From Bacteroidales bacterium (GTDB lineage Bacteria > Bacteroidota > Bacteroidia > Bacteroidales > P3), in contig JAISPZ010000137.1 of NCBI GenBank assembly GCA_031274555.1, forward strand, positions 1-61,875: DNA of 61,875 nt. Reading direction: 5' to 3'. Under the pieces are notes generated by a model, which saw only the letters and a list, made by a program, of their open reading frames with translations, ran no database searches and was not told where the DNA came from. This document shows positions 5,142-55,042 of the stretch, piece after piece. Each line of letters opens with the position of its first letter. Position 1 is the stretch's first letter. The position numbers and the translations under genes are program-made.

Positions 5142-5581
5142 GTCTATTGTAGCCTTAGTGCGTAAGCAAAATTCTCAATTCTTAATTCTCAATTAAATTT
5201 GGGCGTTCCCCCGCCCCTCGCAAGCTCGTGGCGGGGTCGGGCTTTCACTCCAATCTTTTTTGCCACACGCAAAAAACGCTTCGTAAAGCCACAACCTTAC
5301 TCCCACTTTGCCACACCAAAACAACTCTTTCCGCAGCAAAAAAGGATTTCCGCTCAATCCCTAACGCAGCCCAACGCCATCCCCACTCCCCACGCGGCGG
5401 CAACACCCCACCAACAACTCCAATCTCCACGCAGCCCAACGCCATCCCCACTCCCAACGCGGCGGCAACACCCCACCAACAACTCCACTCCCCACGCGCC
5501 CCAACGCCCCACCAACCAACCCACTCCCCACGCGGCGGCAACACCCCACCAACCATCCCCACTCCCCAACGCCCCGCCCTC
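5142..5581. repeat. Gene-free stretch: dispersed element copy B and GC-rich tandem repeats
   Basis: No gene seen. It starts with TTCTCAATTCTTAATTCTCAATT-like short repeats (5170-5195). Dispersed element copy B follows on the plus strand (about 5198-5372), split by about 70 bases between its CAATCTTTTTTGCC and AAAGGATTTCCGC parts. Next is a C-rich array (about 5373-5575) built from ACGCGGCGGCAACACCCCACC and CCAACGCCATCCCCACTCC modules. The array is open in several frames on both strands, but the predicted peptides are pure repeat translations. Confidence 0.85.
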
Positions 5582-30272: not shown

Positions 30273-31322
30273 ATGAAACGAATTTTGATATTATGTCTAA
30301 TGGTTTGTCTGTGTATGATGGTTAGAGCACAGGAAGCGCATTTGAGTGCAACAGGTGTGGGTAGTGCGTATGGTGTAATAAATGCAGTGTTTGCTCCAAC
30401 GAGTGGCGATGTGTGTGAAACACCCGACTGTGCTCATCCTGCTTTTGGCGAACATATAACGCAGGTTTATGATAACGAACTTGGAAAATATGTTTTTGCG
30501 TTTCATGCACACGTGCACTACGACAACGACCGATGTCAGAAATTTGACCGCCAGCGTACCGAAATAAAAACTTATGATCAATCTCCCTCTTTTCAAAAAG
30601 GATTTTATGGCGACAGAGTTCGGTACGAATGGTTGTTTAAACTTCCTGTTGGTTTTAAGCCGTCGAGCAATTTTACTCACTTACATCAAATAAAGGCAGT
30701 GGGCGGGGATGATGATATGCCGATAGTAACAATAACTGCACGAAAAGCATCGCCGAACAGGATAGAACTTAGACACGATAACGAAGTTACCGTTGCACAG
30801 GCGAACCTTTCTAAATTTACAGGGCAGTGGGTAAAGATTGTGGAAGATATTTTTATTGACAGTGTTCATGGGTCTTTATCCATGCTTATAACAAAAGTGT
30901 CGGATGGTGATACAATTCTGTCATACAAGAATGGCAATATTAAAATGATACGTGGCAGTAATGATTTTATACGTCCAAAGTGGGGTATTTATCGCAGCCT
31001 GCTCGACTCGGCAAATTTAAGGGACGAAACAGTTTACTTTAACGATTTTGTTGTTGTAAAAGACACATCGACCAAGCCTGAGATACCTGTATATAATGAA
31101 AATATCACCGCAGGGTACGACAAGTATATTAGTGTGGAAGATGGAAAAATAAATATCTTTTATCCGAAACACGCTGTTGTGGAAATATACGATACTCTTG
31201 GAAATATGTTGTTAAAGACCGAAAGTAAAGAAATCATGACAGATAAGTTTAAAAATAAAATTGTAATTATAAAACTTAAAACGAAAGACGGAGTATTTAC
31301 GTATAAATATTTATTGCTATGA
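30273..31322 (+). CDS. Secreted jelly-roll polysaccharide lyase-like protein
   Basis: About 349 residues. Signal peptide (ending CMMVRAQ). The middle domain has the pattern of beta-jelly-roll lyases: FDRQRTEIKTY near 90, THLHQIKAVGG near 135, and KWGIYRSL near 235, reminiscent of the RTE, QxH and YxxG/IYR blocks of PL7, PL13 and PL20-type enzymes (Pfam polysaccharide lyase PF14099-like). The C-terminal 75 residues look like a divergent T9SS sorting domain (VVEIYDTLGNMLLKTESKE), ending KYLLL. Likely cuts internal polyuronate bonds outside the cell. The exact PL family is uncertain. Its stop overlaps the next ATG (ATGA). Confidence 0.6.
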   Translation: MKRILILCLMVCLCMMVRAQEAHLSATGVGSAYGVINAVFAPTSGDVCETPDCAHPAFGEHITQVYDNELGKYVFAFHAHVHYDNDRCQKFDRQRTEIKTYDQSPSFQKGFYGDRVRYEWLFKLPVGFKPSSNFTHLHQIKAVGGDDDMPIVTITARKASPNRIELRHDNEVTVAQANLSKFTGQWVKIVEDIFIDSVHGSLSMLITKVSDGDTILSYKNGNIKMIRGSNDFIRPKWGIYRSLLDSANLRDETVYFNDFVVVKDTSTKPEIPVYNENITAGYDKYISVEDGKINIFYPKHAVVEIYDTLGNMLLKTESKEIMTDKFKNKIVIIKLKTKDGVFTYKYLLL

Positions 31323-32632
31323 AGAAGATTTTAACAGGCTTTACTGTCCTGCTATTTGTGTTTGCCCAAAGTGCGCAAAGTGCGCAAAGTGCGCAAAGTG
31401 CGCAAAGTGCGCAAAGTATGCAAAATACGCAAAGTACGCAAAATACTCAACGTGCCCAAAATGCCCAAAATGCCCAACGTGTGCAGCGCATAGTTATCAC
31501 GCTCAATGACGACTATCTCGCGGAAGCAAAACAGAATATAAAAAACGGCGATATTATTTCGCAGCAAGAGCTAAAAAAAGTTGTTCGCAAGGCAGATAAA
31601 GCACTCGAAGAAGATATTCTTTACGTAGTGCAAAAAATAGACACTCCGCCGAGTGGCTCAAAGCGCGACTATATGAGTGCTGCCGCGTATTGGTTTCCCG
31701 ACACTACAAAAAAAGACGGATTGCCGTACATAAGGCGGGACGGTATCAGAAACGATAATCTTGGCGAAAATAAAGACGATATTCAAACAATGGCAAGAAA
31801 TGCGTATAACTGCGCACTCGCATATTATTTTACAGACGAAAATAAATACGCGAGAAAAGCAGCGGAGTTTATCCGCGAATGGTTTCTTAACAGTGAAAAA
31901 GGAATGAACCCGAATTTTAATTATGCACAGTATGTCAAAGGGCGCAATACAGGGCGTGGCGCAGGACTGATAGAAGCGCGTGTGTTCTACCGTGTGCTTG
32001 ACGTTGCAAAACTTATTGAAACGTCAAAAGAATGGACGGAAAACGACCGTCAGCAGTTGCAAAAATGGTTCAGTGATTTTCTTGTATGGATGGAAACGTC
32101 AAAGGTGGGATTACAGGAAAACAGGGCAAAAAACAATCATGGCACTTACTACGATGCGACTCGGCTCGCAATATGTTTTTATACAAATCAGTACGATAAA
32201 GCGAGAAATATAATAGACAGTTCGGTAGTAAACCGTATTTTTATTCAGCAGAATGAAGACGGTTCAATGAAAGAAGAAATGACGAGAACATTATCTCTGC
32301 ATTATCACACTTTCAATCTTGAGGCACTTCTTTTAAACTGTATGTTCGCTCAAAAAATCGGCATTGACCTTTATAATTATAGCGATGTGGACGGCAGTTC
32401 AATAAAAAAATATATTGATTATCTTTTGCCGTTCTATTTGCAGGAAAAAAAATGGAGCGGTCAGCAGATAAAGTCGTTCAAGTACGAGCGTGTGATACCG
32501 CTTCTATACTGGTTTGGAAAAAATATTGACGGCAGAGAAAATTATCTCGTTGCAGCAGAACAGTTAGAGAAAATACTTAACTGCCGCATGGATAAATTAA
32601 CAGGACAAAACATAGAAAAAATAAATAAATAA
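31319..32632 (+). CDS. PL38/PL5-type alginate lyase with microsatellite-encoded linker
   Basis: About 437 residues. Signal peptide MKKILTGFTVLLFVFAQ is followed by a low-complexity SAQ/NTQ/NAQ repeat (about residues 18-56) encoded by 9-bp units, then an alginate-lyase fold. It includes AAYWFPDTTKKDGLPYIRRDG near 120, MARNAYNCALAYYFTDENKYA near 155, KNNHGTYYDATRLA near 275 with the catalytic Asn/His, and SLHYHTFNLEALL near 330. These are hallmarks of the Pfam alginate_lyase group shared by PL5 and PL38. Gut Bacteroides alginate PULs pair PL38 with PL6 and PL17, as here. ATGA overlap with the previous gene. Probably periplasmic or secreted. Confidence 0.82.
   Translation: MKKILTGFTVLLFVFAQSAQSAQSAQSAQSAQSMQNTQSTQNTQRAQNAQNAQRVQRIVITLNDDYLAEAKQNIKNGDIISQQELKKVVRKADKALEEDILYVVQKIDTPPSGSKRDYMSAAAYWFPDTTKKDGLPYIRRDGIRNDNLGENKDDIQTMARNAYNCALAYYFTDENKYARKAAEFIREWFLNSEKGMNPNFNYAQYVKGRNTGRGAGLIEARVFYRVLDVAKLIETSKEWTENDRQQLQKWFSDFLVWMETSKVGLQENRAKNNHGTYYDATRLAICFYTNQYDKARNIIDSSVVNRIFIQQNEDGSMKEEMTRTLSLHYHTFNLEALLLNCMFAQKIGIDLYNYSDVDGSSIKKYIDYLLPFYLQEKKWSGQQIKSFKYERVIPLLYWFGKNIDGRENYLVAAEQLEKILNCRMDKLTGQNIEKINK
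31368..31490 (+). repeat. 9-bp in-frame microsatellite in the lyase gene
   Basis: Units of AGTGCGCAA (five perfect copies from about 31370), then diverged units (AGTATGCAA, AATACGCAA, AGTACGCAA, CGTGCCCAA, AATGCCCAA). Because the unit is nine bases, copy-number change would lengthen or shorten the linker after the signal peptide without breaking the frame. Confidence 0.95.
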
Positions 32633-47133: not shown

Positions 47134-49383
47134 TTACATTTCAAAACTTTGTTGAGTCGAACTGTCCTCTAACACCTCATCTTCTGTTCCCGCGCAATCG
47201 GACGGAACATAATTTTCAGGCTTCTCAAAATCCTCTTGCGAGATTTCATCTTTCAGGGCAGGATCGCTGTATATCTTTTTCATATAAATACCCCATATCG
47301 GAAGTGCAGTATTTGCACCCTGACCAAGAGCGGTGGAACGGAAGTGTATTGAGCGTACTTCGCCTCCGACCCAAATTCCTGTAACAAGGTCGGGAGTAAG
47401 CCCCATAAACCATCCGTCTGAATTATTTTGAGTTGTGCCTGTCTTGCCCGCGATAGGTTGAGTAATTCCATATTTGTATCGAAGACGTCCAGCAGTTCCT
47501 TCATCTACGACATGCTTCATCAAATCAATCATTGTGTATGCAGTGTTTTCGCTCATTGCTTCTTCTTTTGTTGGGGAAAATTCTTCGAGCACAACTCCGT
47601 TACGGTCTTCTATCCTTGTCACAAGCAGAGGCTCTACGTGTATGCCTTTGTTTGCAAATGTGGACATGGCACTCGCCATTTCCTTTACCGAAATGTCTGC
47701 CGTACCAAGACAAAGAGATGGCACTGCTTCCATTGGAGCGGTGATACCGCAATGACGTGCAAGGTCTATAACTGCCTGCGGGGAAATTTGTTTCATCAGG
47801 TAGGCAGAAACGAAGTTTACCGAATTTGCCAATGCCCAGCCGAGCGTTACCATTTCGCCCTCGTGGGCTGTGCTCGAATTTTTAGGACACCAGTCGGGTT
47901 GATTTGGTTGAGAGATACAGACCTGAACGTTTGGGATTTTTGTGCAGGGTTTGTAATTTCTCTCTTGTATGGCAAGTGTATAAATAAATGGCTTGAATGT
48001 TGAGCCTACTTGACGGCGACCTGACGAAACGTTGTCGTACTGAAAATACTTGTAGTTTATACCCCCGATATAGGCACGAATATAGCCCGTTTGCGGCTCA
48101 ATAGATATAAGACCTGCGTGTAAAAAGAATTTGTGATAACGAAGCGAATCCCAAGGACTCATGACTGTATCTTTTTCTCCATTCCACGAAAAAACGCGCA
48201 TTTTTACTTTTGTATGAAATGCTTTTTCTATTTCCTTCTCGCTTTTGCCGTCCTCTTTCATGCTGCGATAGCGGTCGGAATTACGCATTGCCCGCCTCAT
48301 TTCGCGATTTATTTCTTCTTCGGAAATGTCTATAAAGGGGGCATTTCTTCCTGTGCTTTGCTTAAAGAACGCGGGCTGAATTTCTTTGCTCATCCACTCT
48401 GCAACTGCTTCTTCGGCATAACGTTGCACTTTGGAGTGTACGGTTGTATAAACTTTTAATCCATCCTTGTAGAGATTATACTCCTGACCGTTTGGCTTGC
48501 GATGTCCTTTGCACCAGGCACCGAGCCACATACGAAGATGTTCGCGCATATATGTAGCAAGTCCATATTGATGATTTTGCTTTGTGAACTTGCTCATATC
48601 TATTGGAAGAGATGAATAATGGTCGTATTCCTCTTTTGAAATATACTCGTTTTTGTACATTTGAGAAAGAACAATGTTTCTTCTCTTAAATGAATTTTCT
48701 GGATTTTGTACAGGATTGTATCTTGACGTTGCTTTGAGCATACCTACAAGAATTGCTGCCTCATCGACTTTAAGTTCTGACGCACTTTTTCCGAAATAAG
48801 TTACTGCCGCCGTTTTTATTCCAAAAGCATTATTGCCGAAATCAACTGTGTTGAAGTACATCGCAATAATTTCTTCTTTTGTATAGTTACGTTCTAATTT
48901 TATTGCAATGACCCACTCTTTAAGTTTGCGAAATGCAATAGTGATTTTATTTTGTTTTTTACGTGGAAAAAGGTTTTTTGCCAACTGTTGTGTTATCGTG
49001 CTTCCGCCACCAGAGCTGCTATGTCCGCCGATAATTGTTTTTCCTATCACACGAGCGAGCGAGCGAATATCTATGCCACTGTGATTGTAGAAGCGGGCAT
49101 CTTCAGTGGCAACGAGAGCATTAACAAGGCAGGGGGCGAGGTCGGAGTAATTTACGTTTGAGCGATTTTCTACGTAGTATGTTCCGAGTATTTGCTGGTC
49201 GGATGAAATTATTTCTGTGGCAAGGCTGCTTTCAGGATTTTCGAGTTCTTCAAAAGACGGCATAAAACCGAAGATACCTGAACTGATACCCACAAAAACA
49301 GCGACTACGAGCGCAAGCGCGACTATGTAGCAAATCCATATTTTTTTGCGACCACTGCTGTTATTTTCCTTGTTTTTGTCCAT
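47134..49383 (-). CDS. mrcA: Class A penicillin-binding protein (PBP1A type)
   Basis: About 749 residues, one N-terminal membrane helix (IWICYIVALALVVAVFVGI). The glycosyltransferase GT51 domain has ATEDARFYNHSGID near 93 and GGSTITQQLAKNLFPR near 125. The transpeptidase domain has SxxK in GSTFKPFIY near 440, SxN in NSVNFVSAY near 500, and KTGTT near 650. It polymerises and crosslinks peptidoglycan. The gene starts two bases after the RicT-GldH gene stop, in the Bacteroidota order holB - PSP1 - gldH - PBP. Cys-free acidic tail. Confidence 0.95.
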   Translation of the reverse strand: MDKNKENNSSGRKKIWICYIVALALVVAVFVGISSGIFGFMPSFEELENPESSLATEIISSDQQILGTYYVENRSNVNYSDLAPCLVNALVATEDARFYNHSGIDIRSLARVIGKTIIGGHSSSGGGSTITQQLAKNLFPRKKQNKITIAFRKLKEWVIAIKLERNYTKEEIIAMYFNTVDFGNNAFGIKTAAVTYFGKSASELKVDEAAILVGMLKATSRYNPVQNPENSFKRRNIVLSQMYKNEYISKEEYDHYSSLPIDMSKFTKQNHQYGLATYMREHLRMWLGAWCKGHRKPNGQEYNLYKDGLKVYTTVHSKVQRYAEEAVAEWMSKEIQPAFFKQSTGRNAPFIDISEEEINREMRRAMRNSDRYRSMKEDGKSEKEIEKAFHTKVKMRVFSWNGEKDTVMSPWDSLRYHKFFLHAGLISIEPQTGYIRAYIGGINYKYFQYDNVSSGRRQVGSTFKPFIYTLAIQERNYKPCTKIPNVQVCISQPNQPDWCPKNSSTAHEGEMVTLGWALANSVNFVSAYLMKQISPQAVIDLARHCGITAPMEAVPSLCLGTADISVKEMASAMSTFANKGIHVEPLLVTRIEDRNGVVLEEFSPTKEEAMSENTAYTMIDLMKHVVDEGTAGRLRYKYGITQPIAGKTGTTQNNSDGWFMGLTPDLVTGIWVGGEVRSIHFRSTALGQGANTALPIWGIYMKKIYSDPALKDEISQEDFEKPENYVPSDCAGTEDEVLEDSSTQQSFEM

Positions 49384-49385
49384 GT

Positions 49386-51071
49386 CTATCTACAACGTTT
49401 GATTTTAATTCCCACATCCGAAATCTCTTTAAGTGTATCGCTACGCATAGCATGCTGAATGTCGAAATGATATATTCCCGCACGTGGAAATTTAATACGA
49501 TTTTTCATCAAAAATACTCTTGTTCGATAATGTCCCATACCACCGCCAAGCCATCTGCCTGTCGCATCTGCAAGAATACATTCTATCGTGTCTGTATATT
49601 TTTCGTCAGATGGAAACGTAGTCTTTACGAGGAAAAACGCATTAGCATAAGGATAATCCGTAGTATTTCTGACTGAAAAAAATACGTCGTAAAGCGCAGC
49701 GGTATCTGATATGTTCGCCTCAATCGGTATTGCCTGTCGTGGTGACCAGAATGGTGCAGGCGTTTCGTACATCCCGTCTATAATCGTATCGTTTTTGCAG
49801 GAAAAAAGTGTTGCAGCAAAACAAAGAAGAATAACACTTTTGATTACAGGTTTTGAAATAGTTGGCATGGAGATGGGACGTTTATGTTTTGGTTTACGTT
49901 GCTGTGTTTTATGAATATGTTTTTCCGAATTGTCAAATCTTTTTACGTCGTCTTGACTTGCAACGTCTATTGCAATATTCTTTTCTTTCTGTGCATGCTT
50001 TTGCAGATTGGGTGCTTTCTTTCCGTTTTTGTTCATTTCAAGATAAACGGCAACATCATCTGCTGCAATGTCAATAAAATCATTTTGCCTGTTGTCGTAA
50101 ACGTACGAGAATACACGCTTAAAAATATCAATCTTTACGCAACGTGCAGTGCCGTCCTCTGTTTCTATCGGTATTTTGGAATCGGGCAATGCTGCTAACG
50201 CCTCCTCATAAACCTCTGCTTCGTAGTTAAGGCAGCATTTTAATTTTCCACATTGTCCCGCAAGTTTTTGGGGATTTAGTGAGAGTTGTTGCGGTCTGGC
50301 AGCATCTGTGCTTACAGAATTAAAATCACGCTTAAACGTAACACAGCAAAACTCTCTGCCACATGGACCAATCCCGCCAATAATGCTCGCTTCCTGCCTC
50401 ATGCCAATCTGTTTCATTTCGATACGTACACGAAATTCTTCCGCATAACGTTTAATGAGCTGACGAAAATCAACACGTCCGTCAGCAGTATAATAAAAAA
50501 TAGCTTTTGTGCGGTCGCCCTGATATTCCACGCTGTTAATTTTCATCTCAAGACCAAGTTCAGCAGCAATAATACGTGCTCTGCGCTGTGTCTCCCGTTC
50601 TATCCTGATTGTTTCAATCCATTTGTCTATATCAGGCTGCCTTGCCTTGCGCAGAAGTTTTTTTATTTTCTCGGAATTTTCCTCAATACCGATATGGTTT
50701 AATCTTATCCTTACAGCATCCCCCTGCAATGAAACAAGCCCTATTTCGTGCCCTTTGTCGCCCTCTACCGCAACGATGTCCCCACATGAATATTGCGCGG
50801 GGTCGTCTGGTATTCTGAAATAACCTTTTCGCGTATTTTTGAAACGGACTTCTACGATAGGGTAGTTACTTGGCGTATTATCACCCTCTGCATGCATTTG
50901 AGCGCAACGGCACATCTGGCAGTGGCGTTCCCTGCTGCTTTCGTTCAACGTTGGTGCGTGAGTACATCCTCGACAGTAGTACAAATTTTCTTCCACTACT
51001 GTTCGTGGAAATATTTGCGGGTCTTCAAGCTCTATAAAATTTGTTACTGTATTACTTTTTTCTTCAGCCAT
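49386..51071 (-). CDS. PSP1/RicT-type protein fused in frame to GldH lipoprotein
   Basis: About 561 residues from the ATG at 51071; a longer start would overlap holB. Residues 30-70 hold a Cys-rich segment (CRGCTHAP, CQMCRCAQ). The PSP1 domain (about 75-350) has the family cysteines IGPCGREFCCVTF and LAGQCGKLKCCLNYE and VDFRQLIKRYAEEFRVRIEMKQIG. A Lys-rich tail leads, without a stop, into a lipoprotein signal (VILLCFAATLFSC) and a GldH-like domain (DGMYETPAPFWSPRQAIPIEANISDTAALYDVFF ... GRWLGGGMGHYRTRVF). GldH is an essential gliding/T9SS-linked lipoprotein normally encoded separately. An internal ATG (49868) would give a normal 160-residue GldH. Either a true fusion, a lost stop, or a frameshift. 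Confidence 0.85.
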   Translation of the reverse strand: MAEEKSNTVTNFIELEDPQIFPRTVVEENLYYCRGCTHAPTLNESSRERHCQMCRCAQMHAEGDNTPSNYPIVEVRFKNTRKGYFRIPDDPAQYSCGDIVAVEGDKGHEIGLVSLQGDAVRIRLNHIGIEENSEKIKKLLRKARQPDIDKWIETIRIERETQRRARIIAAELGLEMKINSVEYQGDRTKAIFYYTADGRVDFRQLIKRYAEEFRVRIEMKQIGMRQEASIIGGIGPCGREFCCVTFKRDFNSVSTDAARPQQLSLNPQKLAGQCGKLKCCLNYEAEVYEEALAALPDSKIPIETEDGTARCVKIDIFKRVFSYVYDNRQNDFIDIAADDVAVYLEMNKNGKKAPNLQKHAQKEKNIAIDVASQDDVKRFDNSEKHIHKTQQRKPKHKRPISMPTISKPVIKSVILLCFAATLFSCKNDTIIDGMYETPAPFWSPRQAIPIEANISDTAALYDVFFSVRNTTDYPYANAFFLVKTTFPSDEKYTDTIECILADATGRWLGGGMGHYRTRVFLMKNRIKFPRAGIYHFDIQHAMRSDTLKEISDVGIKIKRCR

Positions 51072-51075
51072 TGTA

Positions 51076-52242
51076 TTAATTATTACGCTTCTTTTCTGCT
51101 TCAAATATTTTGCAGAAACGAAGCGACGCGTCCGTAAGCAGTAATGGTATGTTGCCGTTACGGTCTGTATTATAAATTGTTTGATTTATTATGGAATAAA
51201 ATTTATCTATATTATTCTTGTGGACAAATGAGGAAAATTTTGTCGAAAAAACTTTTTGTTCATCCGTCACCTTGATATGTTTCTCTGCGCTGTATCTTAT
51301 GAGAAGACAACGTCTAAACTCTTCGAGGGAGCTTGACAGGAAATATTTTATTTTTTCTCTGCTGAGCGATTTCATTTTTTCGGAAAAATTCAAAATAGAC
51401 GGCACGTCCACAGCGTAACAGTAGCGCATCCACGAAACAAATTCTTTGTGAAATTCGTTGTCCTGTTCGTTATTCTGTGCTTTTTTTAGACCTTCGATAA
51501 TATTTCCGTTGGACTTTTGTGCGGCTATACGTGCGATATTCGGTGATATTCCAAATTGTGAAACAAGCTCCTGTTCAACTTCGCTTTCTGATAGTTTGAA
51601 GAAGCGTACAAGCTGGGTTCGAGAGCGGATAGTGGCGATTATATTGTCGGGGTCTTCGGTTATAAGAATAAAGACAGTTCCGTCTTCGGGTTCTTCGAGT
51701 GTTTTTAGTAGTGTCGCAGAGATAGTGTCGCTTATTTTTTCTGCCATCCAGATAATGACAATTCTGTAGTCGGCTTCAAACCTGCGTAAATTCAGTGCAC
51801 CAAGCAGAGTGTCGCAGTCGGCTTTATTTATGATGGCTTGCCTGTTTACTCCGATTTCCATTGCATTGACCCATGTTTGATACGAGAACTCACCGCGATA
51901 TTCTGCAAATATTTTGCGCCATAATGGAAGATAATCTAAACTCCTTGATTTTTCTATTGTCGCGTTATCGTTATTCGGAAAAAAGAAATGTAAATCGGGA
52001 TGTTCAAGACGAGAAAATTTTATGCAGCTTGAACATTTTCCGCAGCTGTCAATAGGTTTTCCATCAGATGAGAGAATTTTATTTTTGCAATTTATAAACT
52101 GTGCGTACGCCAGAGCGACAGGCAATTTTTGACTTCCTTCGGGACCGAAAAAAAGCTGGGCATGCGCGATACGCCCTTGCCCCGCTGCCTCAATAAGCCG
52201 AGCGATCAGTTTTTGTTGTGATATGATGTCTTTAAATTGCAT
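51076..52242 (-). CDS. holB: DNA polymerase III subunit delta'
   Basis: About 388 residues. AAA+ clamp-loader fold: N-terminal FKDIISQQKLIARLIEAAGQGRIAHAQLFFGPEGSQKLPVALAYAQF (modified Walker A), zinc motif CGKCSSCIKF near 70, RIVIIWMAEKISDTISATLLKTLEEPEDGTVFILIT near 165, and IRSRTQLVRFF near 205. Acts in the replisome clamp loader. Its stop lies four bases before the PSP1 start. The 104-bp leader between lysE and holB is a 9-bp repeat tract. Confidence 0.92.
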   Translation of the reverse strand: MQFKDIISQQKLIARLIEAAGQGRIAHAQLFFGPEGSQKLPVALAYAQFINCKNKILSSDGKPIDSCGKCSSCIKFSRLEHPDLHFFFPNNDNATIEKSRSLDYLPLWRKIFAEYRGEFSYQTWVNAMEIGVNRQAIINKADCDTLLGALNLRRFEADYRIVIIWMAEKISDTISATLLKTLEEPEDGTVFILITEDPDNIIATIRSRTQLVRFFKLSESEVEQELVSQFGISPNIARIAAQKSNGNIIEGLKKAQNNEQDNEFHKEFVSWMRYCYAVDVPSILNFSEKMKSLSREKIKYFLSSSLEEFRRCLLIRYSAEKHIKVTDEQKVFSTKFSSFVHKNNIDKFYSIINQTIYNTDRNGNIPLLLTDASLRFCKIFEAEKKRNN

Positions 52243-53083: not shown

Positions 53084-55042
53084 ATGGCTTTGAAAGATAC
53101 TATTGCAGATGTTGCTGCAAATGATGTGGCAAATGTTGTGGCTGATACTGCTGTTTCGGGTGTTTCGTCAAACATTAATTTGGCAGATACTGCTGTGGAT
53201 GTTGCTGCAAATGATGTGGCGGATACTGCTGTTTCGGGTGTTTCGGGTGTTTCGTCAAACATTAATTTGGCGGATACTTTAAAAATACTTCCCGAAGCAC
53301 CCGGAGTATATCGTTATTATGGTGAAGACGGAACATTGCTCTATGTGGGGAAAGCAAAGAATTTAAAGAAGCGTGTCAATTCATATTTCACAAAAGAGCA
53401 GACAGGTAAAGTTCGTGTTCTTGTAAATAAAATTCATCGAATAGAAACTATCGTTGTCGATAACGAATACGAGGCACTACTTCTCGAAAATTCGCTTATA
53501 AAACAGTATAAGCCACGTTACAACATAATGCTCAAAGATGACAAGACATATCCGTGGTTATGTCTTACGTCAGGACATTTTCCGCGCATTTATCCTACAC
53601 GCCGAAAGGACGATGTCAATGCTACGTACTTCGGTCCTTATGCAAAAGTGCAGACTATCCACGTTTTGCTTGATCTTATTCACGAGCTTTATCCCATACG
53701 AAATTGTCGTTTTAATCTATCGCCAGAAGTTATCGCTTCCAAAAAAATTAAACTCTGTCTTGAATATCAAATGAAGCGTTGCAAAGGACCTTGTCAGGGA
53801 TTACAGAGCGAAGAAGAATATCTTTCTGATATTGCTCAAGTAAAAAGTTTTGTGAGGGGACATATAAAACCGTTACTTAGTTCGCTTCGCAATGAAATGA
53901 ATGAGCTTGCCGAAAGGCGAGAGTTTATGAGGGCGCAGGGTGTGAAAGAGAGGCTTGAACTCTTACAGCAGTATCAGAGTAAATCTCTTGTTGTAAGTGA
54001 GGTATTATCAAATCTTGATGTTATTTCGTTTATAGAGAAGGACGAAATATATTTTTTCAATTTTTTACATATAGAGGACGGTCGTATTGTGCAGGCGCAA
54101 ACGGTAGAGTTGAAGCCTCGTTTGGACGAAAGTTCGCAGGAACTGCTTGCTTCCATGATTGTAGAATTTCGTTTGCGAAACGAGAGTGACGCTCGCGAAA
54201 TTGTAACAAATGAGCTGCCTGACACTTTGCTTCAGGGCATCACTGTGACAGTTCCGAAAGTGGGTGAGAAGAAACATCTTTTAGATCTTTCTCAAAGAAA
54301 TATTTTGTTCTACATTTCTGAAAAGACGAAGCGTCAAGACCTTGTCGATCCTGACAGGCATGGCAAGCGTATTGTGGCGGAAATTCAAAAGGCACTCGGC
54401 ATGGCTGTTCCGCCAACGCATATAGAATGTTTTGACAACTCTAATTTTCAAGGTGACTATCCTGTCGCAGCGATGAGTGTGAGCAGAAACGGTGCACTGT
54501 CAAAAAAGGATTATCGTCATTTCAACATAAGGACGGTAGAGGGTGCGGACGATTATGCTTCTATGGAAGAAATAATTTATCGCCGTTATCATCGGCTTGT
54601 TTCAGAGAACGAAGAACTCCCTCAACTCGTTGTTATAGACGGTGGGAAAGGGCAACTTGCTGCGGCGCATAAAAGTATTGTCGCGCTTGGTTTGAGTGAT
54701 AAAATTTTCCTCATCGGCATAGCGAAACGGCTTGAAGAAATTTTTCGTGTCGGCGATCCTTATCCTCTTATGTTGGACAAGCGCAGCGAGGCTTTAAAGC
54801 ATATTCAAACTCTAAGGGATGAAGTCCACCGCTTTGGAATTACGCACTATCGCAAGCGTCATCTGAAAGGCATTGTCCGCACCGAATTGACATCTATCAA
54901 AGGCATTGGTGAAGAAACCGCCACGCTGCTGCTCAAGCATTTTAAGAGTGTGAAAAAAATCCGCGAAGCCTCGTTGGAACAGTTGGCAGAGGTGGTCGGA
55001 ATTTCAAAAGCGGGGATTATTCGCGATGGGTTGGCGGGGTAG
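53084..55042 (+). CDS. uvrC: UvrABC system protein C with duplicated N-terminal extension
   Basis: About 652 residues. GIY-YIG nuclease domain (LPEAPGVYRYYGEDGTLLYVGKAKNLKKRVNSYF, about 68-145), a UVR helical domain near 255-290, the RNase H-like endonuclease domain (IECFDNSNFQGDYPVAAMSV near 445; VVIDGGKGQLAAAH near 520), and two HhH motifs at the C-terminus (LTSIKGIGEETATLLLKHFKSV). The first 65 residues are unusual: an Ala/Val/Asp-rich segment repeated twice (DVAANDVA...ADTAVSGVSSNINLADT). UvrC normally starts just before the LPxxPGVY motif. Incises DNA on both sides of a lesion. The last 68 codons are duplicated downstream at 56204. Confidence 0.95.
   Translation: MALKDTIADVAANDVANVVADTAVSGVSSNINLADTAVDVAANDVADTAVSGVSGVSSNINLADTLKILPEAPGVYRYYGEDGTLLYVGKAKNLKKRVNSYFTKEQTGKVRVLVNKIHRIETIVVDNEYEALLLENSLIKQYKPRYNIMLKDDKTYPWLCLTSGHFPRIYPTRRKDDVNATYFGPYAKVQTIHVLLDLIHELYPIRNCRFNLSPEVIASKKIKLCLEYQMKRCKGPCQGLQSEEEYLSDIAQVKSFVRGHIKPLLSSLRNEMNELAERREFMRAQGVKERLELLQQYQSKSLVVSEVLSNLDVISFIEKDEIYFFNFLHIEDGRIVQAQTVELKPRLDESSQELLASMIVEFRLRNESDAREIVTNELPDTLLQGITVTVPKVGEKKHLLDLSQRNILFYISEKTKRQDLVDPDRHGKRIVAEIQKALGMAVPPTHIECFDNSNFQGDYPVAAMSVSRNGALSKKDYRHFNIRTVEGADDYASMEEIIYRRYHRLVSENEELPQLVVIDGGKGQLAAAHKSIVALGLSDKIFLIGIAKRLEEIFRVGDPYPLMLDKRSEALKHIQTLRDEVHRFGITHYRKRHLKGIVRTELTSIKGIGEETATLLLKHFKSVKKIREASLEQLAEVVGISKAGIIRDGLAG
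53112..53278 (+). repeat. In-frame tandem duplication in the uvrC 5' end
   Basis: Two units begin GATGTTGCTGCAAATGATG (about 53109 and 53199) and end GTTTCGTCAAACATTAATTTGG, then GCAGATACT or GCGGATACT. Unit one carries an extra GCAAATGTTGTG block and unit two an extra GGTGTTTCG block. All differences are multiples of three, so the frame is preserved. Confidence 0.9.

Follow-up and report, generated by a model that had tools for sequence, protein, structure and literature searches.

RicT (PSP1) and GldH are almost certainly fused in a single open reading frame in a Bacteroidales bacterium, and among the genomes sampled the fusion is present in both known members of the genus and in no other. 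The window analysed here is a contiguous stretch of 61,875 nucleotides (contig JAISPZ010000137.1), and the fused ricT-gldH orf occupies positions 49386..51071 of its minus strand, extending for 561 codons from an ATG at 51071 to a TAG at 49386 with no internal stops; a matching continuous frame exists in the congener (L032/L061). At the base composition of the window, 50 random codons would stay free of stops with a probability of about 0.04, so that the open junction is more than chance. The initial annotation, made from the nucleotide sequence, had stated that the two domains share one orf, and the profile matches detailed below confirm this for both; the mass of 63 kDa that it gave for the fusion is corrected to a calculated 64.2 kDa. 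As a whole, the orf is most aptly classified as a new variant in which two known families, RicT and GldH, are fused.

The fused orf is separated by a few bases on each side from its neighbours, which are upstream a DNA polymerase III delta′-like gene (51076..52242, minus strand; PF13177, E-value 5e-37) and downstream a gene encoding a class A penicillin-binding protein (47134..49383, minus strand; PF00912 and PF00905). The window belongs to a draft MAG of 157 contigs that is 78% complete, in which one ricT match and one gldH match were found, both within the fused orf. The congener likewise has a single detected copy of gldH; both genomes with the fused orf are incomplete MAGs (78% and 86%), in which an intact second gldH could be hidden.

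The N-terminal half contains a complete RicT/YaaT (PSP1) core at residues 66-360 (49992..50876, minus strand), which is folded in the AF2 model. The RicT profile NF041131 (NCBIfam) matches residues 98-317 with an E-value of 3e-75 and a score of 252 bits, the curated cut-off being 70 bits, and the PSP1 domain (PF04468, Pfam) matches residues 137-222 with an E-value of 3.5e-26. The iron-sulfur cysteine signature CX4CCX30CX4CC, which was defined for RicT of Firmicutes (PMC6751060), is complete at residues 237-280 (50232..50363, minus strand) and occurs at the matching place in both fused proteins; the loop that holds these cysteines (residues 230-285) has low confidence in the full-length AF2 model. 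As a separate observation, the RicT proteins of Bacteroidota have extra near-invariant N-terminal cysteines beyond the six-cysteine signature of Firmicutes (C33, C36 and C56 in the window, 50904-50975; L061-L089), which may bind a metal.

In Bacillus subtilis, RicT binds the membrane protein RNase Y (PMC10470536), and the share of RicT attached to the membrane is about half (PMC8945944). Binding of RNase Y and possession of a [4Fe-4S] cluster are traits of RicT. The gene for RNase Y is present in both genomes that have the fused orf, whereas no homologues of RicA or RicF (Com_YlbF) were found in G000, G001 or three relatives by a search for which the B. subtilis control was positive. This result suggests a RicT without a Firmicute-type Y-complex, so that the protein is placed in NF041131, a family that does not require the presence of RicA or RicF, and not among the members of the Y-complex; by the same token, a partnership with RNase Y in Bacteroidota is an extrapolation. 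A further difference from other RicT proteins is that the C-terminus of the fused protein continues through a membrane signal into GldH.

The mature GldH domain follows at residues 425-561 (49389..49799, minus strand). The Pfam profile GldH_lipo (PF14109) matches residues 432-557 with an E-value of 5e-34 and 118 bits against a cut-off of 27, and TIGR03511 matches residues 410-558 with an E-value of 1e-30 and 106.8 bits against a cut-off of 78.7. A confident GldH beta-sandwich was obtained with AF2 (pLDDT 91.7 for the model and about 95 over the domain), for which a Foldseek search of the PDB returned only weak beta-sandwich matches with TM below 0.5, to which no functional conclusion is attached. 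In its full domain, its lipobox cysteine and its adjacency to ricT, which is the arrangement of nearly all Bacteroidota examined, this half agrees with the GldH lipoprotein. It differs in that the signal peptide, which is N-terminal in the lipoprotein, is internal, with the cysteine at residue 425 and the signal preceded by about 411 residues that derive from RicT, and in that the sister fusion lacks a GldH start of its own. The C-terminal half is a fusion variant carrying the GldH domain, rather than an ordinary GldH lipoprotein. GldH of Flavobacterium johnsoniae was recovered from the outer-membrane fraction in a study that also attributes to GldH a stabilising effect on GldJ and/or GldK (PMC11885536); the type IX secretion protein GldL is encoded in both genomes with the fused orf.

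Between the folded RicT and GldH parts lies a basic, low-complexity linker (residues 361-405; 49857..49991, minus strand; pI about 10), which comes from the C-terminal tail of RicT and is predicted to be disordered, residues 362-426 of the full-length AF2 model having pLDDT below 50. The linker leads into the relict C-terminal motif of RicT, SKPVIK (49839..49856, minus strand; QKPILK in the sister species), which would now be the n-region of the signal, and then into the hydrophobic segment and lipobox SVILLCFAATLFSC (residues 412-425; 49797..49838, minus strand), with Cys425 as the predicted lipidation site. This old GldH signal is the most hydrophobic stretch of the whole fused protein and forms a helix in the AF2 model. 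The initial annotation had rightly noticed an internal lipobox, LLCFAATLFSC, and had placed it at about residues 415-427; its actual extent is residues 415-425. The lipobox cysteine is invariant across 28 GldH sequences, both fusions included, and the dipeptide [SA]C is kept in both fused species. The classical lipobox consensus is [LVI][ASTVI][GAS]C, to which the fused lipobox L-F-[SA]-C conforms at positions -3 and -1 and from which it departs by a phenylalanine at -2; the basic flank and the hydrophobic peak are both present.

Within the collection surveyed, the genus has just one further genome, that of the congener (G001; GenBank JAIRNR010000092.1, MAG Cd354_bin43), and comparison with it, a course that the initial annotation had recommended for close relatives, revealed an identical fused architecture, with the RicT-GldH frame uninterrupted for 570 amino acids from stop to stop. 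The two fused proteins are 74-75% identical, and with an overall dS of about 2 their synonymous sites have reached saturation. The linker has retained 38% identity and has undergone several in-frame indels, and no stop has been gained. Between the two species, dN/dS is about 0.04 in the RicT core, rises to 0.11 in the signal region and reaches 0.15 in mature GldH; as judged from these ratios, both halves of the fusion are under purifying selection.

The same comparison answers the earlier suggestion that a single indel or sequencing error at the junction could account for the open frame, a missing base or stop in reality dividing two normal genes. The window genome is a draft MAG in 157 contigs and a TAA is present in another frame near the junction, both of which would be in keeping with such an artefact, but the frame is open in two independently binned assemblies after a divergence long enough to have saturated synonymous sites, which rules out a simple indel. 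Moreover, the sister species lacks any GldH start, so that a stop alone would not restore two normal genes, and an artefact of assembly or sequencing is exceedingly improbable. The fusion might alternatively be the decaying remnant of a degenerating locus, with either GldH or RicT out of use, considering that only a single fused copy was found and that incomplete genomes could conceal an intact gldH elsewhere. Low dN/dS ratios in both halves after long divergence and the retention of all key residues make degeneration very unlikely.

The statement of the initial annotation that the two genes are normally separate neighbours agrees with the wider survey, in which almost every Bacteroidota locus examined has ricT and gldH side by side on one strand; where they are in the same frame elsewhere, at least one stop lies between them. 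Other uninterrupted RicT-GldH frames were absent from about 900 genomes (149 of the family, 393 of the order and 395 of the class, with some overlap), which were scanned with strict E-value limits, under which a fusion whose GldH is highly divergent could have gone unnoticed. Long RicT frames of genus g3 (695-850 amino acids) were considered as further fusions and rejected, gldH being a separate frame in every one that was fetched. In genus g9, RicT of G029 ends at its own stop, and G063 has ricT and gldH as separate genes on one contig. Three assemblies of this genus are interrupted at the locus: the contig ends at the ricT/gldH junction in G009 and G019, and the two genes of G029 are on different contigs.

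The origin of the junction can be reconstructed from the three nearest genera (g7, g9 and g11). Their RicT proteins have a long basic tail that ends with [QGS]KP[IV]LK, followed by 4-14 residues and a stop, and their gldH genes start just before or after the end of RicT, often overlapping it in another frame. Of 88 distinct RicT sequences, 20 have this motif, all of them from the clade of g7, g9 and g11 or from the two fusions. In a tree of the RicT core (midpoint-rooted for drawing only), the fused genus g1 groups with g9 and g11 (support 99/96), beside g7 (96/89 for all four genera). The sequence alignments of the analysis comprised co-linear rows and, separately, GldH alone. In the fused proteins, KPVIK or QKPILK is joined directly to the GldH hydrophobic stretch ILLCFAATLF[SA]C. 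When 25 bp are deleted from the ricT/gldH overlap of G007, which is of the g7 type, QKPILK is joined in frame to LIFLLICMYLTSC, which is the same kind of joint (QKPILK-LIFLL...SC); one deletion that takes the RicT stop and the GldH start therefore suffices. So the fusion would have arisen once, in the stem of the genus, through a single ancestral deletion in which the RicT stop, the GldH start codon and the charged n-region were lost together. Apart from its place in the fusion, [QGS]KP[IV]LK is a clade-specific peptide that ends the fast-evolving basic tail of RicT in genera g1, g7, g9 and g11 (for example L042, L099 and L036) and is possibly a binding peptide.

An in-frame ATG within the fused orf (codon 402; 49866..49868, minus strand) had been proposed in the initial annotation as the start of a normal GldH. 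The codon does exist, 23 codons before the lipobox cysteine, where it would give a normal-looking signal peptide, and Bacteroidota do not depend on Shine-Dalgarno sites for initiation. According to this explanation there would be two products, an extended RicT (or a readthrough fusion) and a GldH started internally, at ATG 49868 in the window and at a GTG, ATC or CTG in the sister species. However, the ATG is upstream of the C-terminal motif of RicT, which indicates that it derives from the RicT tail and not from gldH, and hence that it is not the ancestral GldH start. Its 25-base context scores -3.1, which is below 37 of the 40 real starts (leave-one-out), and 40% of 321 internal in-frame ATG codons score as high or higher; the matrix was built from 40 genes of the window, a small set with which the score is supporting rather than decisive. 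The ATG is absent from the sister species, in which no ATG, GTG or TTG occurs within 48 codons upstream of the lipobox cysteine, the nearest GTG being 49 codons upstream and the nearer alternatives being only ATC, ATT and CTG codons close to or inside the hydrophobic stretch. The proposal that ATG 49868 makes normal GldH is accordingly disfavoured, the codon is probably not a native start, and the two-product explanation is quite unlikely; there is a small residual chance that it serves as a secondary GldH start in the window species.

Of three ways in which the fusion could be used, the likeliest, and a fairly probable one, is translation into a precursor whose RicT part stays in the cytoplasm while its GldH part reaches the periplasm; Cys425 would be lipidated, and signal peptidase II would cut the precursor. 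The topology is one proposed in the initial annotation, and it is kept as the best reading with its orientation presumed; the signal peptidase II route to two proteins was not foreseen there. Ribosomes would make one RicT-linker-signal-GldH polypeptide, as the sequence of the continuous frame shows, and the KP[IV]LK motif and basic tail of RicT would act as the positively charged n-region of the GldH lipoprotein signal. The chain would be inserted via Sec/SRP as a bitopic precursor with its N-terminus inside and its C-terminus outside, Cys425 would be lipidated by Lgt, and LspA (signal peptidase II, encoded in both genomes with the fused orf) would cut before Cys425. The predicted products are a 48.5-kDa RicT with a hydrophobic C-terminal membrane tail and a 15.7-kDa lipidated GldH, which would be produced one-to-one. 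RicT would thus be obligately membrane-bound and situated next to membrane-anchored RNase Y, and the freed GldH lipoprotein could travel to the outer membrane. The precursor model is weakened by its reliance on a putative cleavage at an internal lipobox that is preceded by about 48 kDa of folded protein on the cytoplasmic side, by the phenylalanine at -2 that is off the classical consensus, by the failure to find RicA and RicF, and by the incompleteness of both MAGs.

Alternatively, the fusion may stay uncleaved as a bitopic protein of the inner membrane, in which GldH is tethered on the periplasmic side and RicT faces the cytoplasm, an arrangement that might couple the state of the envelope to RNA processing. 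The hydrophobic segment could act as a signal anchor, the long linker is predicted to be disordered, and the phenylalanine at -2 of the GldH lipobox is also compatible with a permanent tether. Yet both species have retained [SA]C, whereas an anchor that is never cut could dispense with a lipobox, and the cysteine is invariant across GldH. In addition, Flavobacterium GldH is present in the outer-membrane fraction (PMC11885536); if GldH has to arrive there, it would have to be separated from RicT, and cleavage is then likelier than a permanent tether. Retention of the whole fusion in the inner membrane is unlikely by comparison with the cut precursor.

If the precursor is cut as predicted, it would bear a likeness to two kinds of known protein. 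FbcH of Bradyrhizobium is a cytochrome b/c1 polyprotein with an internal signal sequence at which signal peptidase I cuts it into two functional proteins. A bacterial precursor, an internal signal sequence, a signal peptidase and two resulting proteins are common to both cases, the cut being only predicted for the fusion; in contrast, FbcH is cut by signal peptidase I into two subunits of an energy chain, whereas signal peptidase II is predicted here to separate two halves with unrelated roles, one on each side of the membrane. Bitopic proteins of the type II signal-anchor kind, such as RodZ and TonB, share the N-in/C-out orientation and the one hydrophobic segment, but the segment of the fused protein differs in having a lipobox and in its descent from a lipoprotein signal of the cleavable type. 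A literature search for a precedent of an internal lipobox and for FbcH yielded no useful paper.

The ricT-gldH neighbourhood is kept across most of the Bacteroidota examined with no known functional link, and a fusion maintained by selection shows directly that making RicT and GldH together is at least tolerated and perhaps useful. A broader interpretation is that the fusion is a bacterial polyprotein that signal peptidase II cuts at an internal lipobox, freeing an outer-membrane lipoprotein and leaving a cytoplasmic iron-sulfur regulator of RNA processing tail-anchored, and that it constitutes Rosetta-stone evidence for coupling of RicT with GldH and type IX secretion across Bacteroidota; taken as a whole, this interpretation is evenly poised between acceptance and rejection. 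Cleavage of the internal lipobox would make the fusion a natural case of a lipoprotein that matures from within a larger protein of the cytoplasm. The fusion would also offer a ready membrane-bound RicT with which to ask about RicT and RNase Y at the membrane outside Firmicutes.

Three repetitive features elsewhere in the window were observed. A tandem duplication of about 87 bp (53108-53278) at the start of a uvrC-like orf (53084-55042) gives rise to a repeated N-terminal leader (ADTAVDVAANDVADTAVSGVSSNINLADT) ahead of the likely normal start of the family, and the true start of this orf may be downstream. A 9-bp tandem repeat at 31363-31485 (TGCGCAAAG, about 14 copies), in an orf that starts at 31319, encodes a QSA-rich stretch after an apparent signal peptide and is possibly a length-variable region. 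Between two other orfs, at 5355-5568, is a C-rich tandem array of 65-bp and 37-bp units (CCCCACGC...).
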